Below are positions 135-46,627 of a stretch of DNA of 53,587 nucleotides, one piece after another. The stretch comes from Rubrivivax sp. Lineage in GTDB: Bacteria > Pseudomonadota > Gammaproteobacteria > Burkholderiales > Burkholderiaceae_C. The position numbers and the translations under genes are program-made. The stretch is from positions 1-53,587 of the forward strand of contig JAHBZS010000035.1 of NCBI GenBank assembly GCA_019635285.1. Direction: 5' to 3'. The notes under the pieces are model-generated. The model did no database searches, was not told the DNA's origin, and was given only the letters and a program-made list of their open reading frames with translations. The stretch's first letter is position 1. Each line of letters begins with the position of its first letter.

Positions 135-1064
135 ATGAGGATTCGCGAGCTGGCCAGCGGCCTGCAGTTCCCCGAAGGGCCGGTGGCGATGGACGACGGC
201 TCGGTGCTGCTGGTGGAGATCGCGCGCGGCACGCTCAGCCGCGTCACGACCGACGGCCGGGTGCAGGTGGTAGCGCGCTTGGGCGGCGGGCCCAACGGCG
301 CGGCCATCGGCCCCGACGGCGCGGTGTACGTGTGCAACAACGGCGGCTTCGAATACACCACCGAGGCCGACGGCTGCTTGCGCCCCACCGGCCAGGCCCG
401 CGACTACGACGGCGGGCGCGTCGAACGCGTGAACCTGGCCACCGGGCGCTTCGAGCGCCTGTTCGATACCGTGGAGGGCGTGCCCCTGCGCGGGCCGAAC
501 GACATCGTCTTTGCGGTCGACGGTAGCTTCTACTTCACCGACCTGGGCAAGTCGCGTGCGCTGGACATGGACCATGGCGGCGTATTCCATGCGCCGGCCG
601 ATGGCGGCGCGCCGCGCGTCATCGCCAGGCCGGCGCTGACGCCAAACGGCGTGGCGCTGTCACCGGATGGCCGGACGCTGTACTACGCGGAGACCGCGGG
701 CGCGCGGCTCTGGGCCTTCGACCTCGACGCGTCGGGCCAGGTGCGCCGGCAGCCCTGGCCGTCGCCGCACGGTGGGCGCCTGCTGGCGGCATCGCCGGGC
801 GGGCAGCTGCAGCGCTTCGACTCGATGGCGGTCGACGCCTTCGGCAACCTGCACGTGGCGACGCTGTTGCACGGTGGCATCACCGTCGTGTCGCCCGACG
901 GCGCACGCTGGCACCATGTGCCGCTGCCCGACCGCTACGTCACCAACCTTTGTTTCGGCGGGCGCGACCGGCGCACGCTGTACGTCACGCTGTCGGGCAG
1001 CGGCCGGCTCATCGCCATCGACGGCTGGCCGACGGCCGGGTTGATGCTGGCATTCAATGTCTGA
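135..1064 (+). CDS. SMP-30/gluconolactonase/LRE family protein
   Basis: A protein of 309 residues of the SMP-30/gluconolactonase (six-bladed beta-propeller) family, whose members hydrolyse sugar lactones or related esters with one divalent metal ion. Family landmarks are visible: LQFPEGPVA near the N-terminus (metal-binding Glu), RGPNDIVFA, LTPNGVALSPDG and FDSMAVDAFGN (metal-binding Asp). An in-frame ATG exists at 111, but the ATG at 135 is preferred because AAGGGG lies 6 bases before it and the family fold begins at once with MRIRELASG. No signal peptide is seen, so it is probably cytoplasmic. It converges on the broken enolase-superfamily gene, and the pair could belong to sugar-acid catabolism; that link is inference. 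The true substrate cannot be read from the sequence. Confidence 0.85.
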   Translation: MRIRELASGLQFPEGPVAMDDGSVLLVEIARGTLSRVTTDGRVQVVARLGGGPNGAAIGPDGAVYVCNNGGFEYTTEADGCLRPTGQARDYDGGRVERVNLATGRFERLFDTVEGVPLRGPNDIVFAVDGSFYFTDLGKSRALDMDHGGVFHAPADGGAPRVIARPALTPNGVALSPDGRTLYYAETAGARLWAFDLDASGQVRRQPWPSPHGGRLLAASPGGQLQRFDSMAVDAFGNLHVATLLHGGITVVSPDGARWHHVPLPDRYVTNLCFGGRDRRTLYVTLSGSGRLIAIDGWPTAGLMLAFNV

Positions 1065-41539: not shown

Positions 41540-44311
41540 ATGAATGCGCGTTCCGTGTCGCTGCCGCCAGTGCAGTTTGGCCGTTTCGAGCTGCGGCCGG
41601 CGCAGCGTGTGTTGCTGGACGGCGGCGTGCCGGTGCCATTGGGCGGGCGCGCCTTCGACGTGCTGGTGGTGCTGGCCGCGCAGGCCGGACGCCTGGTGCC
41701 CAAGAGCCAGTTGCTGGACGAGGCCTGGCCCGGCCTGGTGGTGGAGGAGGGCAACGTCGCGGCGCAGATCATGGCGCTGCGCAAGGCCCTGGGCAGCGAC
41801 GCCATCGCCACGGTGGCCGGCCACGGCTACCGCTTCACGCTGGCGGCCGAGCCGGTGGGCGCGGCCGAAGGGGCGCCGCACGCCGCCGCGTCAAGCTCGC
41901 CCGCGGCGCCCGCCATGCCCGCCGCCGCGAGGCACAACCTGCCGGCAGCCGCCACGTCCTTTGTCGGACGCACGGCGGAGATCGCGCAGATCACCGGGCT
42001 GCTGCAGACCCACCGGCTGGTCTCGCTGCTCGGCCCGGGCGGCATCGGCAAGACGCGCCTGGCGCTGCAGGTGGCCACGGGCCAGCTCGATGCACGGCAC
42101 GGCTTCGTCGATGGCGTGTGGTGGATCGAGCTGGCGCCGCTGTTCGACGCCGCGCTGGTGGCGGCCGACGCCGCCGCGCTGTGGGGCCTGCGCGCGGGGG
42201 ACGGCTCGTCGATCGAACAGGTGCTGCTGCGCCACCTGGCGCCGCGCCGGCTGCTGCTGGTGCTGGACAACTGCGAGCACCTGCGTGAAGGCACGGCGGC
42301 ATTGGTGCGCCGCATCCTGCGCCAAGCGCCCGGCGTGACGCTGCTGGCCACCTCGCGCGAATCGCTGGGCGTGCCCGGCGAGGTGGAGTTCCGCGTCGGC
42401 AGCCTGGCGCTGCCGGCCGAAGGCTCGGCGGACGCCAGCGGCGACGCGGTGCGCCTGTTCCTGGAGCGCATGCAGGCGGTGCGGCCCGGCGCGGCGCTGG
42501 CGGCCGACGAGTTGGCGGAGGTGCTGCGTGCCTGCCGGCGCCTGCAAGGCATGCCGCTTGCCCTGGAGCTGGCGGCGGCGCGCTTGCGCAGCTTGACGCC
42601 GCATGAACTGGCCGACCGGCTGGACGACTCGTTCCGCGTGCTCGGCACGACGGCCAAGGACGCGCTGCCGCACCAGCGCAGCCTGGACGCCGCGCTGGAC
42701 TGGTCGCACGATCTGCTGGCGCCCGAGGAGCGCGTGTTGCTGCGCCGTCTCGCGGTGTTTGCCGGCGGCTTCGAGCTCGAGGCGGCCGAGGCGGTGTGCC
42801 CCGTCGACGCGCTGCCCGACGCGATGACGAACGACGCCGCGGCGCACGTGGCGGTGCCGGTCGAATCGGTGGTCGATCGGCTGGACGCGCTGGTCGACAA
42901 GTCGCTGGTGCTGCCGCTGGCCGGCAGCGCGCCGCGGGCGCGCTTTCACTTGCTGGAGCCCACGCGGCAGTACGCGCTGCAGCGGCTGCGCGCCGCCGGC
43001 GAAGAGCATGCGGTGGCGGCGGCGCACGCGCGCCATGTCGCCGCCTTCGTCGCCGCCATCGCGCCCGGCCTGCGCGGGCCGGCGCAGGTGGCGGCGCGCC
43101 AGCGCATCGAGCGCGAACTGGGCAACGTGCGCGTGGCCCTGCGCACGCTGCTGGCGCAGGGCGAGCACGAGCGCTACCTGCGCCTGGCCTTCGACCTGTT
43201 CAGCTTCTGGGGCCATGCGGCGCTGCATGTGGAGGGCCTGCAGGTGCTGCTGGAGGGCCTGCGTGCCGCGGGCGACGACACGCCCGCGGCGGTCCGCGCC
43301 CGGGCCTGGTTCGCGGCCGCCGAACTGGCCGCGCAGTTGAGCGATCCGCGGTCGGTGGAGCATGCGCGCGCGGGGCTGGCCGTGGCCACGGCGGCCGGCC
43401 TGCCGGCCGAAGCCGCGCGCCTGCGCCTGGAGCTGGCCGCGTCGTTGCACCGCACCGGTGACGACTTCGAGGCCTTCCGCCGCGAGCTGGACGCCGCCGA
43501 ACTCGCGCTGGCCCAGCACCCCGGCGCGCCGTGGTGGGAACCGGAATGGGACGCCGCCTACCTGCACCTGCTGCTGGTCAGCTCGGAATGGAGCGCGCAC
43601 CCGCAGTACGAAGCGCACCAGCAGGCGGCGCTGCAGGGCTTCGAGCGTGCGGGCGACGTGGCGATGGCCGCGCTGGCGCTGGCCTACAGCGCGATGCTGG
43701 CCGGCCGCCTGGACACCGCCACGATCGTCGGCAACCTGGAGCGCACGATGGCCATGCTGGAGAGCTCGCCGTCACCGCACATCGAAGGCCACGGCGAACT
43801 GATCCTCGGCCGCGTGCTCGCCGCCCGCGGCGACGTGGAGCCGGCCGGCCGCTACCTGGCCAGCGCCATGCGCAAGCTCATCGACCTGGGCGACGTCAAC
43901 TGCTGGTCGGGCGCCTGCCGTTCGCTGGCGGCCATCCAGCTCGACCGCGGCGACGTGGGCTCCGCCTGCGAGCACCTGGAGGCGGTGCTGCGCGCGCTGC
44001 CGCAGGTGCTGTCGACGACGGCCGCCGCCGCGCAGGCGCTGGACCTGGCGGCCGCGGCGCTGCTGGCGCAAGGCCGCCTGGACGAAGCCGCGTTTGCGCT
44101 GGGCGTGGACGTGGGCCGCATCGACGACGGCGCCCGTTCCGGCCGGCCGCGCAGCGCGCGCGCCCCCGGCCCGCGGCCGCGCCACGACCCCGTGCGGCAG
44201 GCGCTGGCGCAACGCCTGGGCGCCGAAGCCGTGCAGCGGCGCGTGGACGAGGCCGCGGCGTTGCCGGCCGACGCCGCGCTGCAACGCGTCATCGGCTGGC
44301 TGCGCGGCTGA
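41540..44311 (+). CDS. OmpR-type winged-helix regulator with NB-ARC-like ATPase and TPR-like region
   Basis: A 923-residue cytoplasmic transcription factor of the signal-transduction ATPase (STAND) type. Order: a winged-helix DNA-binding domain of the OmpR/CadC type (about 8-103, with PLGGRAFDVLVVLAAQAGRLVPKSQLLDEAW and IMALRKALGSDAIATVAGHGYRF); an Ala-rich linker; an NB-ARC-like ATPase opening with SFVGRTAEIAQITGLL, Walker A LGPGGIGKTR near residue 165, Walker B RLLLVLDNCEHL near 237 and sensor TLLATSRESLGVPGE; and about 450 residues of helical repeats. Such proteins bind DNA after a ligand or nucleotide frees the ATPase. Two downstream leftward genes carry 11-bp-spaced heptamers, the target layout for this DNA-binding fold, so it is the prime candidate to control them. 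Confidence 0.88.
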   Translation: MNARSVSLPPVQFGRFELRPAQRVLLDGGVPVPLGGRAFDVLVVLAAQAGRLVPKSQLLDEAWPGLVVEEGNVAAQIMALRKALGSDAIATVAGHGYRFTLAAEPVGAAEGAPHAAASSSPAAPAMPAAARHNLPAAATSFVGRTAEIAQITGLLQTHRLVSLLGPGGIGKTRLALQVATGQLDARHGFVDGVWWIELAPLFDAALVAADAAALWGLRAGDGSSIEQVLLRHLAPRRLLLVLDNCEHLREGTAALVRRILRQAPGVTLLATSRESLGVPGEVEFRVGSLALPAEGSADASGDAVRLFLERMQAVRPGAALAADELAEVLRACRRLQGMPLALELAAARLRSLTPHELADRLDDSFRVLGTTAKDALPHQRSLDAALDWSHDLLAPEERVLLRRLAVFAGGFELEAAEAVCPVDALPDAMTNDAAAHVAVPVESVVDRLDALVDKSLVLPLAGSAPRARFHLLEPTRQYALQRLRAAGEEHAVAAAHARHVAAFVAAIAPGLRGPAQVAARQRIERELGNVRVALRTLLAQGEHERYLRLAFDLFSFWGHAALHVEGLQVLLEGLRAAGDDTPAAVRARAWFAAAELAAQLSDPRSVEHARAGLAVATAAGLPAEAARLRLELAASLHRTGDDFEAFRRELDAAELALAQHPGAPWWEPEWDAAYLHLLLVSSEWSAHPQYEAHQQAALQGFERAGDVAMAALALAYSAMLAGRLDTATIVGNLERTMAMLESSPSPHIEGHGELILGRVLAARGDVEPAGRYLASAMRKLIDLGDVNCWSGACRSLAAIQLDRGDVGSACEHLEAVLRALPQVLSTTAAAAQALDLAAAALLAQGRLDEAAFALGVDVGRIDDGARSGRPRSARAPGPRPRHDPVRQALAQRLGAEAVQRRVDEAAALPADAALQRVIGWLRG

Positions 44312-44347
44312 CGCGCGGCACGTGGCGGGCGGCCCGCGGCCGCGTCA
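44309..44347. terminator. Possible bidirectional terminator hairpin
   Basis: TGACGCG (containing the regulator stop codon) and CGCGTCA (containing the stop of the convergent gene) form a 7-bp perfect stem around a very GC-rich loop. No U-run follows on either strand, so rho-independent action is doubtful. Confidence 0.3.
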
Positions 44348-44806
44348 CTTGGAGCCGAAGTCGCGCTTGAACTTCTTCAGGTCGATCTGCAGGCCGTGGA
44401 AGATGGCGCTCCACTGGCGCGTCATGCCGGCCACCGTGACGGCTTCGCTGATCTCCTGGTCGGTGGCCCCGGCGCGGCGCGCGTCCGCCGTGTCCATGGA
44501 CACGCAGTATTCGCAAGGGATCTGCGCGGACACGGCCAGCGAGATCAGCGACCGGTACTTGGGCGGCAGCACGGTGTTCGGGCCGTACAAGCCCTTGTAG
44601 GCCGACCACAGGCCAGGCAGTGCCGCCGGCGGCAACCTGGCCATGAAGTCGGGCACCATGCCGAGCGTGGCCTGGATGTCCTGCAAGGTGGCCTCGTAGG
44701 TGGTCTGCGCGTGGGCCGGCAGCAGGGCCAGCGGGGCCACGAGCATCACCGCCGTGGCGGCGGCGCGGCGCAGGGTGCGGTGCAGGTTGGGGGCAGGGCG
44801 GTTCAT
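44345..44806 (-). CDS. Secreted carboxymuconolactone-decarboxylase-like (AhpD-fold) protein
   Basis: A 153-residue protein with a signal peptide (TLRRAAATAVMLVAPLALLPAHAQ) followed by a short AhpD/CMD-like domain. The family's redox Cys-x2-Cys is in SAQIPCEYCVSMDTADARRAGAT, with the following helix ISEAVTVAGMTRQWSAIFHGL. Members of this family include peroxidase partners and decarboxylases; most are cytoplasmic, so an exported one is less common. A frame open upstream to 44947 is not used, because the signal peptide starts at 44806 and AAGGAAGAACC lies before it. The promoter region holds three 11-bp-spaced heptamers shared with the PEP-CTERM gene. The role is uncertain: perhaps thiol-based detoxification in the periplasm. 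Confidence 0.82.
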   Translation of the reverse strand: MNRPAPNLHRTLRRAAATAVMLVAPLALLPAHAQTTYEATLQDIQATLGMVPDFMARLPPAALPGLWSAYKGLYGPNTVLPPKYRSLISLAVSAQIPCEYCVSMDTADARRAGATDQEISEAVTVAGMTRQWSAIFHGLQIDLKKFKRDFGSK

Positions 44807-44908
44807 GGTTCTTCCTTTCTGTGGGCTACGGTGGAAGCCGGGCTCGGGCCGCGGTGGCGGAGGTGTCGGCCGCCGGTGCCCACTGTCGGCCGAAGGACCG
44901 CGCGGCGT

Positions 44909-44971
44909 CTTGAAAGCGCCATGAAACCTGCATGAAGCGCGATTCATGGCGCCTGCATCGCGGCTTCATGA
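44909..44971. promoter_or_regulatory. 11-bp-spaced heptamer repeats upstream of the CMD-like gene
   Basis: CTTGAAA (44909), CATGAAA (44920) and CATGAAG (44931) recur every 11 bases, separated by gcgc and cctg. Just beyond, TTCATGG (44943), TGCATCG (44954, weak) and TTCATGA (44965) form a mirror set with the same 11-base step on the other strand. The first set lies 103 bases upstream of the CMD-like ATG. Seven-base direct repeats with 4-base spacers are the site type for OmpR/PhoB-fold activators and SARP proteins. Read leftwards, the heptamer is TTTCATG. Confidence 0.65.
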
Positions 44972-45260
44972 CCGGGCCCCATCGGGGTCCTGCGGCCCGT
45001 GCCGCGCACGCCGTCACACCCGATGGCCCGGTGATCGACATGCCCGCGTGGCGGCTGTCCCGGCGCCACCTGCAAAGCGCCGTGGACCGCTGGCCGCGCG
45101 CGGCCAGGCGCACCCGGTCCACGTCGGGTGTCGACGGCGATGCTCATGCTTCGGGTGACGCACGCCGCGCACCCGCGGGCCGGGCGCGTCGGGCCGCGCG
45201 CGCGGTGGCGCCGCCTGGCCGGCACGCGCCCGCGGCGGCGCCGCGCCTGGCCGGTGCACG
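44972..45260. other. Gene-free stretch downstream of the PEP-CTERM gene
   Basis: About 290 bases with no supportable gene on either strand. Open frames on both strands are arginine/alanine-rich products of the extreme GC content, with no start signal or recognisable protein. Together with the neighbouring repeats it makes a 575-base gap (44807-45381), unusually long for this window. I see nothing more in it. Confidence 0.5.
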
Positions 45261-45382
45261 GATGCACCTTCGCCTTCGGCTGCGGCGCGAGCGCCCTGCG
45301 GAGCGGCCGGGCGGGTGCCTATCGATGCACCTTCGCGTTCGGCGCCGGTGCGAGCGCCCTTCGGAGCGGCCGGGCGGGCGCT
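45261..45382. repeat. 63-bp imperfect tandem duplication
   Basis: Two successive copies starting gatgcacctt (45261 and 45324) share gatgcaccttcg, ttcggc, gcgagcgccct and cggagcggccgggcggg at matching places, with a period of 63 bases. The second copy runs into the stop codon of the PEP-CTERM gene. In copy two, GAGCGCCC (45352-45359) pairs perfectly with GGGCGCTC (45376-45383), so the transcript of the PEP-CTERM gene could end in a hairpin that includes its stop codon. Confidence 0.8.
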
Positions 45383-46017
45383 CAGCCTTGTTTGCGACGG
45401 CGCGTGGCCGCCAGGCCGGCCAGGCCCAGGCCCGCCAGCGCGAGGCTCGCCGGCTCCGGCACGGTCGCTTGGGTGGTGGGGCCGATCTGGACCGTGATGC
45501 GGTCGGCATGCTCGCCGCTGCCGAAGGTCCAGACGTAGGTGCCCGGGTCCAGCCCCAGGTTGGCGAAGCTGGTGTTCACGAATGTCGCCGAGCCGTACAG
45601 CGTGCCGCCTGAGGCGTAGCCTTGGGGCAAGATGATTCTCTGATCGTTAGCATCGATGCCGAAGGTCTCACCGGAACCGCTGTCTGCGAAATTCTGCCCC
45701 AGCGTGCTCGCGCCGAAGCCGCCCGGTCCGCTGAAGTTCGTCGTGGTCCAGACATCGACCTCGCCAAGGGGACCCAAGGTCGCATACGCCGTCGGCGCAT
45801 GCACGAGGGGAGGGACCATGCGGGAATCCATGTAACTGAAGTCGGAGCTGTCGATGGAGCCGCTGCCAATGGCGACCACGCCGCCGCCCATTTCGACGAA
45901 GGTGATGACCAACGAAGCCTGGGCCGCCGGTGTGGCGGCCAGCGCGGCGAGCAAGGCCGTGGCGGTGGCAACGCGGGCACGCAGCCGGTGTGAGGGGGGG
46001 TGCGGCAGCTTTTTCAT
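45382..46017 (-). CDS. PEP-CTERM sorting-domain protein
   Basis: A 211-residue exported protein. It starts with a signal peptide (MKKLPHPPSHRLRARVATAT and then ALLAALAATPAAQAS) and ends with a textbook PEP-CTERM tail: VPEPASLALAGLGLAGLAAT followed by the basic RRRKQG. Proteins with this tail are anchored in the membrane, cut by an exosortase and delivered to the outside, usually in bacteria that make exopolysaccharide. The middle part is rich in Gly, Ser, Thr and Asn and probably beta-structured, with no known domain. No exosortase gene is in the window, so it must lie elsewhere. The ATG at 46017 has GGAAGGGAG before it. Its promoter region carries the three-heptamer element. Confidence 0.9.
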   Translation of the reverse strand: MKKLPHPPSHRLRARVATATALLAALAATPAAQASLVITFVEMGGGVVAIGSGSIDSSDFSYMDSRMVPPLVHAPTAYATLGPLGEVDVWTTTNFSGPGGFGASTLGQNFADSGSGETFGIDANDQRIILPQGYASGGTLYGSATFVNTSFANLGLDPGTYVWTFGSGEHADRITVQIGPTTQATVPEPASLALAGLGLAGLAATRRRKQG

Positions 46018-46128
46018 AGGGTCTCCCTTCCTTGTCATGGGGTTCGGCATGGTCGACGTGGACCAGCGGTGGACGGCAGGCCCATCCGCGGGTCACGGTC
46101 GAAGCTTGGCCGACGCAGCGCGCGCCGT

Positions 46129-46157
46129 CATGAAAGCGCCATGAAATCTGCATGAAA
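46129..46157. promoter_or_regulatory. Three perfect CATGAAA heptamers at 11-bp steps upstream of the PEP-CTERM gene
   Basis: CATGAAA occurs at 46129, 46140 and 46151, spaced by gcgc and tctg. The whole 29-base element differs at only a few bases from that upstream of the CMD-like gene (44909-44937), including the same gcgc spacer. It lies 112 bases upstream of the PEP-CTERM ATG, against 103 for the other gene, and 159 bases before the divergent small membrane protein gene. Same location and same spacing in two promoters point to a shared regulator. Confidence 0.75.
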
Positions 46158-46315
46158 GGTCTGGCGCGGCGCCGGCGTCGCAGCCTCAGGCGCACGCCTT
46201 TCGCTCGGGTCGGCCGAGCCTTCGCGCGACGACGCCCGCAGGCTGTGTAGCATCGGCGCCGCCGGGTTGGCGCCGCCGGCTGGCGCGGCGCGGTGCATCT
46301 GGAAGCTCAGGCCGC

Positions 46316-46627
46316 ATGACCCCACACGCTCGTCCTTCGAAGGCCGCCATCGCCGCGGTTGCCGCGCTTGGCGCGCTCTCGCTGTTCGGCGGATGGATCG
46401 TCGTCTACGGCAGGGGCTTCTATGCCGATCTCGGCAAGCGCGGCAAGCACATGGTCTTCGTCGACGGCGCCCCGGCCGTGCTGATGGCGGTGCTGCAACT
46501 GCTGTGCGCGGCACTGGCATTCGCCTGGCTGCTGGAGCGATGCATGTCGACCCGCGCCGCCGTGGGGCTGGCCTGCGTGGGGGTCTTCATGCCGCCGGCG
46601 ATCTATCTCTACCTGGCGGCCGGCTAG
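46316..46627 (+). CDS. Small hypothetical membrane protein
   Basis: A 103-residue protein with three hydrophobic helices: AAIAAVAALGALSLFGGWIVVYG, LMAVLQLLCAALAFAWLL, and AAVGLACVGVFMPPAIYLYLAAG. Between the first two is a polar loop (GFYADLGKRGKHMVFVDG). The ATG at 46316 is the natural start before the first helix. It is divergent from the PEP-CTERM gene and shares a 298-base intergenic region that holds the heptamer element. I do not recognise a family. Likely an inner-membrane protein. Confidence 0.75.
   Translation: MTPHARPSKAAIAAVAALGALSLFGGWIVVYGRGFYADLGKRGKHMVFVDGAPAVLMAVLQLLCAALAFAWLLERCMSTRAAVGLACVGVFMPPAIYLYLAAG

Follow-up and report, generated by a model that had tools for sequence, protein, structure and literature searches.

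Two minus-strand promoters in a stretch of 53,587 nucleotides of a Rubrivivax sp. genome (contig JAHBZS010000035.1, hereafter the window) each carry an array of three heptameric direct repeats, and these arrays are putative operators of the wHTH-STAND regulator encoded beside them. The regulator is predicted to bind head-to-tail, overlapping the -35 region, and to activate an exported CMD/AhpD-like gene (CMD) and probably a PEP-CTERM gene; we give this reading a probability of roughly 0.84. The link between arrays and regulator, proposed in a first-pass annotation of the window, gains support from co-occurrence with an ortholog, motif-first scans, strand-specific enrichment and covariation of residue and base, all of which are comparisons of sequences. 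From the same comparisons we infer binding, activation rather than repression, control by a signal, and that the PEP-CTERM gene too is regulated.

Regulator and promoter arrays

The features of the locus are collected in Table 1. The AlphaFold2 model of the regulator (pLDDT 80.7) consists of a wHTH, an NTPase starting near residue 145 and a long helical-repeat arm, the hairpins of which span residues 489-922. Its best PDB match is 6mfv, a STAND protein with TPR, and the next is Apaf-1. The NTPase scores above the cut-off for AAA_16 and slightly below that for NB-ARC (22.9 vs 23.5 bits), and no TPR was matched by Pfam in the regulator sequence. It had been claimed that a regulator of the PhoB/OmpR or SARP fold lies next to the arrays. 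The wHTH, which is N-terminal, is indeed of the PhoB/Trans_reg_C type and its recognition helix reads EEGN, but no BTAD, the SARP domain, was found after the wHTH, the Pfam matches (E up to 0.001) being Trans_reg_C, AAA_16, NB-ARC and NACHT alone. Nor did Pfam match a receiver domain in the regulator. The description of the STAND regulator as unusual had to be abandoned since the family abounds in large STAND proteins that carry a wHTH of the PhoB type, 60 of 250 genomes having a match at E up to 1e-60. The Rubrivivax genome holds at least 11 Trans_reg_C matches (E up to 0.001), the regulator itself being outside the matches listed.

Table 1. Features of the regulator locus, in window coordinates.
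Feature	Position	Strand	Sequence or basis
wHTH-STAND regulator, 923 aa	41540..44311	+	Pfam Trans_reg_C 1.6e-11, AAA_16 2.9e-9
Regulator parts (residues)	wHTH ~11-103; NTPase ~145-300; C-terminal helical repeats ~489-922		P-loop GPGGIGKT in the NTPase
Exported CMD/AhpD-like gene, putative first target	44345..44806	-	PF02627 3.9e-17; TIGR00778 above cut-off
Probable -10 of CMD, 21 bp past the array	44882..44887	-	GACAGT, kept in G017
-35-like hexamer, overlapping third heptamer of CMD array	44906..44911	-	AAGACG; placed from its position relative to the -10 and from arrays of other genomes
Triple-heptamer array, CMD promoter	44909..44937	-	CTTCATG-CAGG-TTTCATG-GCGC-TTTCAAG
Weaker opposed array	44943..44972	+	TTCATGGCGCCTGCATCGCGGCTTCATGAC; one mismatch to consensus; partly kept in G017 (alignment, by eye)
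PEP-CTERM gene, second probable target	45382..46017	-	PF07589 7e-8
Hexamer at -10 position of PEP-CTERM promoter	46102..46107	-	AAGCTT, poor match
-35-like hexamer (predicted), overlapping third heptamer of PEP-CTERM array	46126..46131	-	ATGACG
Triple-heptamer array, PEP-CTERM promoter	46129..46157	-	TTTCATG-CAGA-TTTCATG-GCGC-TTTCATG, perfect TTTCATG x3

Both putative target genes lie on the strand on which both arrays read. The nearly identical 29-base element noted earlier at the two promoters stands, with one letter corrected in the first heptamer at 44909, which is CTTGAAA and not CATGAAA on the plus strand. The distance to the start codon, given earlier as about 100-110 bases, is 102 bp for CMD (ATG 44806) and 111 bp for the PEP-CTERM gene (ATG 46017), taking in each case the likely start. 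The spacing between -10 and -35 fits a sigma-70 layout for CMD and for the arrays of relatives, though the hexamers are poor and the -10 of the PEP-CTERM promoter is very poor. The poor -35 and suboptimal -10 suggest dependence on an activator. As to the small regulon which had been envisaged, the side of the surface protein is weakened by the poor -10 of its promoter. The signal peptide of CMD was read by eye, and a single exosortase match in the genome makes it plausible that the PEP-CTERM protein is sorted. The weaker opposed array stands back-to-back with the CMD array and no -10 was seen behind it.

Searching the window for two heptamers with up to 3 mismatches gave 4 matches, against a mean of 0.59 and a maximum of 3 in 100 dinucleotide shuffles. 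A scan of the whole genome (4,895,717 bases, 94.5% complete) for three heptamers with up to 3 mismatches returned only 2 places, both of them the known arrays, and the reversed pattern was found nowhere in this genome at the same stringency. With two heptamers and up to 1 mismatch there were 4 places in the genome, every one within the two arrays. Both arrays are less than 1.9 kb from the 3' end of the regulator gene, the first being about 600 bp from it.

The orthologous promoter in G017

A search of 61 genomes, 37 of them among the 81 of the genus, found one ortholog of the regulator (84% over 923 residues), in genome G017 on contig JAIUPH010000024.1, which is one of 3 loci from a contig scan; no further ortholog was found in 250 family genomes. 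The G017 regulator is again convergent with a CMD gene, the product of which is 84% identical to that in the window. There, an alpha/beta hydrolase gene (PF08386) precedes CMD and an array, CTTGATG-CACG-TTTCATC-GCGC-CTTCATG, lies before the hydrolase. The hydrolase is gone from the Rubrivivax genome, and the aligned block enters its 3' end by about 35 bases. The CMD leader (44807-44887) seems to retain a remnant of the hydrolase gene end still found in G017.

When the window was compared at the nucleotide level with 16 kb from the G017 contig, five alignments resulted, namely the regulator-CMD block, both promoters of the window and two short stretches elsewhere. The promoters, at 44881-44960 (76%) and 46118-46172 (80%), both align to one and the same G017 promoter, so it seems that the CMD promoter was copied and that the PEP-CTERM gene acquired the copy. 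Downstream of the array GGCCGACAGTG is common to CMD and G017, where the GACAGT lies 20 bp past the array, while the PEP-CTERM copy has AAGCTT at this place.

This last difference could mean that the PEP-CTERM array is a functionless relic of the promoter duplication, and the rarity of the PEP-CTERM protein, matched at E up to 1e-8 in just 2 of the 80 other genus genomes with G017 not among them, points the same way. However, the PEP-CTERM array is more perfect than the CMD array, and a STAND regulator in G140 likewise has an array, albeit a weak one, before a PEP-CTERM gene (TIGR02595 above cut-off). We regard a relic as rather unlikely and retain the PEP-CTERM gene as a probable target.

Arrays beside related regulators

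Scanning the genus for three heptamers with up to 3 mismatches gave matches in 10 of 81 genomes, the Rubrivivax genome included, and the reversed pattern gave 0 in all 81. The loci were inspected in 8 of the other 9 matched genomes, G068 being left out. Seven of these eight have GTTCATG or CTTCATG copies resembling duplications around start codons and were set aside as another element, the reading frames being listed for 3 of the 7; the copies have 11-bp spacing (L069-L075, in G012, G080, G088, G090, G023, G097 and G104). The locus of G062, a two-mismatch match, falls outside this group.

Perfect repeats, sought in 60 STAND loci and 500 bp upstream, gave a weak signal at lag 11 because the repeats are imperfect and differ between regulators, and motif-based scans were therefore used. 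The first motif, TTCAT x3, was taken from the Rubrivivax and G017 arrays alone and run over 59 other STAND loci, at each lag from 8 to 15. When up to 2 mismatches were allowed, 3 matches fell at lag 11 and 2 at the seven other lags together, the reversed motif giving 0; with up to 3 mismatches lag 11 (8 matches) was no better than lags 9 (13) and 12 (17). Two of the three lag-11 matches precede two genes for exported proteins next to the STAND regulator of G025; the third, in G222, lies before an SCO4226-like gene (PF14026) divergent from the STAND regulator there. All three arrays end in TTSAWGAC and are followed 21 bp after the last heptamer by a GAnAnT-like hexamer (GAAAGT, GACAAT and GAGCAT, compared with GACAGT at CMD in the window).

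A pattern from the six arrays of the window, G017, G025 and G222, run over 399 family genomes, had 4 exact matches, these being the two arrays of the window and those of G222 and G383 (same genus). When the -10 position was included there were 109 matches in 87 of the 399 genomes, 5 of them exact, 10 with one mismatch and 94 with two, and the reversed pattern gave 19. Each of the 5 exact matches (two in the window, then G222, G383 and G259) adjoins a wHTH regulator gene. The surroundings of all 109 were examined, some over no more than 1.5 kb a side or as far as the contig end. A divergent wHTH domain lies within 70 bp of 6 of the 109 (G222, G383, G382, G259, G214 and G308) compared with about 0.016 expected, our own estimate, with a Poisson tail, from some 23 wHTH matches per genome as the mean of nine genomes picked for carrying arrays; the pattern had been built partly on G222, to which G383 is related, and the genomes G214 and G308 are of one genus with different regulators. 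The convergent layout of the window recurs in G430, G154 and, across four genes, G314, and in G213, G218 and G429 a wHTH match is 0.4-1.1 kb from the array. The other 95 of the 109 had no wHTH match in the stretch examined and were taken as chance.

A period-10 version of the pattern gave 58 matches, 0 exact and 2 with one mismatch; of the 30 loci examined, 1 had a wHTH match and none had one within 70 bp. One period-10 match, in G242 (L231:3570), has four repeats before two small genes resembling membrane peptides; L231 has no wHTH match, and tblastn found none in L249.

A weight matrix applied to the divergent strand upstream of wHTH domains recovered the same layout in other letters, TTTAG in G226 and G015 and TTGAG in G195 and G211. 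Lag 10 scored too, because some real arrays step by 10 bp. The layout was generalised to a model of three TTNAG with steps of 10-11 and then 10-12 bp, GAC, 17-19 bp and GACANT, which was counted in 300 bp on 61 regulators of 59 loci, using one domain per protein. At a score of at least 16 an array was found on the divergent strand of 23/61 regulators, on the same strand of 0/61, in 1/305 shuffled sequences and in 0/122 coding windows. At a score of at least 14 the contrast was weaker (34/61, 7/61, 24/305 and 4/122, respectively). Of the 23 arrays, 14 were already known when the model was written and 9 are new; 38 of the 61 related regulators have no array scoring at least 16 in the 300 bp searched. 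Of 490 spacing combinations, 11-11-19 did best, in 5 regulators, and the same-strand count was 0 in all 490. Leaving the -10 out of the model gave 19 non-redundant arrays, and the best -10-like hexamer then lay 18-20 bp past the GAC in 10.4/19 when ties were split, against an expectation of about 1.8; another peak, of 2.95, came one turn beyond. This spacing lets the -35 fall, as NNGACN, within the third repeat and leaves a normal spacer of 17-18 bp.

The existence in the genus of GTTCATG and CTTCATG copies at 11-bp spacing lends a little credit to the idea that the arrays arose by chance or by minisatellite-like duplication. The conservation of the promoter in G017 contradicts it, as do the shuffle test, the uniqueness of the arrays in their own genome, the family scans and the generic-model counts, and we find it scarcely credible.

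Recognition helices were compared with the repeats. Five of the 61 regulators (those of G211, G199, G195 and G201, and one of G017 that is its second STAND regulator) have His before the Asn of the recognition helix, and in every one of the five the free position is G throughout the three repeats (TTGA). Regulators of the Asn type with arrays scoring at least 14 have two or more G in 1/21 cases; with two further loci added the comparison is 5/5 vs 1/23 (Fisher 6e-5), a value to be read with the knowledge that four of the five His-type regulators have a target family in common (starts compared; a weak AurF match, below cut-off) and are thus not independent. Arrays of this kind also accompany wHTH regulators that lack a STAND part (G259, G308 and G214), so the code would not be STAND-specific.

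Given these results we lean somewhat towards one grammar for family wHTH domains with STAND/TPR sensors, consisting of three TTNAG at 10-11 bp, GAC, about 18 bp and GACAGT, usually before a divergent gene. The third base of each repeat, the free one, would be read by a residue of the recognition helix, EEHN going with G and EENN or EEGN mostly with C, T or A. A shared operator layout would yield a predicted target promoter and strand for each regulator, and the His-TTGA covariation offers a specificity code that can be tested. If correct, such a protein-DNA code would predict the local targets of a large and poorly characterised regulator family from genome sequence.

A response regulator of the OmpR/PhoB type encoded elsewhere might bind the arrays instead. 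These proteins share the wHTH fold, and another wHTH match is found 1.1 kb (G213) or 2.2 kb (G154) upstream of an array. However, the arrays in the Rubrivivax genome lie only beside the STAND regulator, and both the divergent-strand enrichment beside STAND regulators and the covariation with their recognition helix count against this alternative, which we hold to be very unlikely.

Putative mode of action, known systems and targets

If the adjacent regulator does bind the arrays, its wHTH domains would line up head-to-tail along one face of the DNA, each on its own 11-bp repeat. The protomer on the third repeat would overlap the poor -35 (NNGACN), 17-18 bp before the GACAGT-type -10, and could take over the part of the -35 in recruiting sigma-70 RNA polymerase. 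The change of the regulator to an oligomeric, active form would follow a signal perceived through its C-terminal repeats and ATPase. The targets would be the convergent CMD, joined in the sister species by the hydrolase, and, as a probable further one, the PEP-CTERM gene. The overlap of the third heptamer with the -35-like hexamer could be read as repression by covering the -35. The poor promoter hexamers speak for an activator, two of the repeats are upstream of the -35 and a solved relative, AfsR, is described in PMC10936776 as activating from a site overlapping the -35, so repression seems improbable and activation is preferred.

The array geometry matches that of PimR and AfsR operators. 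According to PMC5930380, PimR, a SARP-LAL regulator of Streptomyces, has three direct heptamer repeats set 4 bp apart in the promoter of its target gene, which is the geometry of both arrays in the window, and its second operator has 10-bp units, as several arrays here likewise do. The heptamer of PimR, however, reads CGGCAAG, and the main PimR operator lies off the -35 (PMC5930380), whereas here the third repeat overlaps the predicted -35; PimR also has a SARP domain and is actinobacterial, and the BTAD part of such a domain was not found in the regulator here. AfsR (PMC10936776) combines a DNA-binding domain with ATPase and TPR in a comparable manner and uses 11-bp direct repeats at a promoter with a poor -35 and suboptimal -10, as here. 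It differs in its BTA domain and in having two repeats, centred at -29.5, instead of three. In SARP sites the 3' repeat is 8 bp from the -10 (PMC10936776), unlike the arrays here, which end about 21 bp before it (21 bp at CMD; 18-20 bp from the GAC in 10.4/19). Response regulators of the PhoB/OmpR type have the wHTH fold too, and mycobacterial PhoP is described with 7-bp direct repeats and a 4-bp spacer (PMC4832192); the present regulator has a STAND ATPase and helical repeats in place of a receiver domain. A search of listings of open-licence papers turned up no binding sites reported for wHTH-STAND proteins of proteobacteria. The wHTH of the regulator also has NCBIfam similarity to HilA/EilA, far under the family cut-off. 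The HilA box consists of direct repeats at an 11-bp period, and HilA is not known to have a STAND ATPase.

A different control of PEP-CTERM genes is known from Aquincola, which we take to be a relative of the present genome. RpoN and PrsK-PrsR control a PEP-CTERM gene there, as reported in PMC9850573. This type of control employs a -24/-12 sigma-54 element, and the first-pass annotation had named such a promoter as an argument against the proposed regulon; none was found at up to 2 mismatches in 43450-46493, and control by sigma-54 was rejected for this gene. The PEP-CTERM array suggests a route of control for a surface protein besides RpoN.

The genes under such arrays include alpha/beta hydrolases in G017 and G314 (PF00561 in the latter), SCO4226-like proteins in G383 and G430 (by eye) as well as in G222, and exported small proteins, and PEP-CTERM genes occur in the window and in G140. 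A lipoprotein family is common to G008, with a STAND regulator, and G308, with a wHTH-TPR regulator (35% identity). Alike small exported proteins with no Pfam family are found under such arrays in two genera, in G430 (L230) and G025 (L054). In G314 (L137:7094-10675) an array stands before a run of four genes, one of them for a TIR-domain protein (PF13676). The run is convergent with a STAND regulator, on the divergent side of which there is another array.
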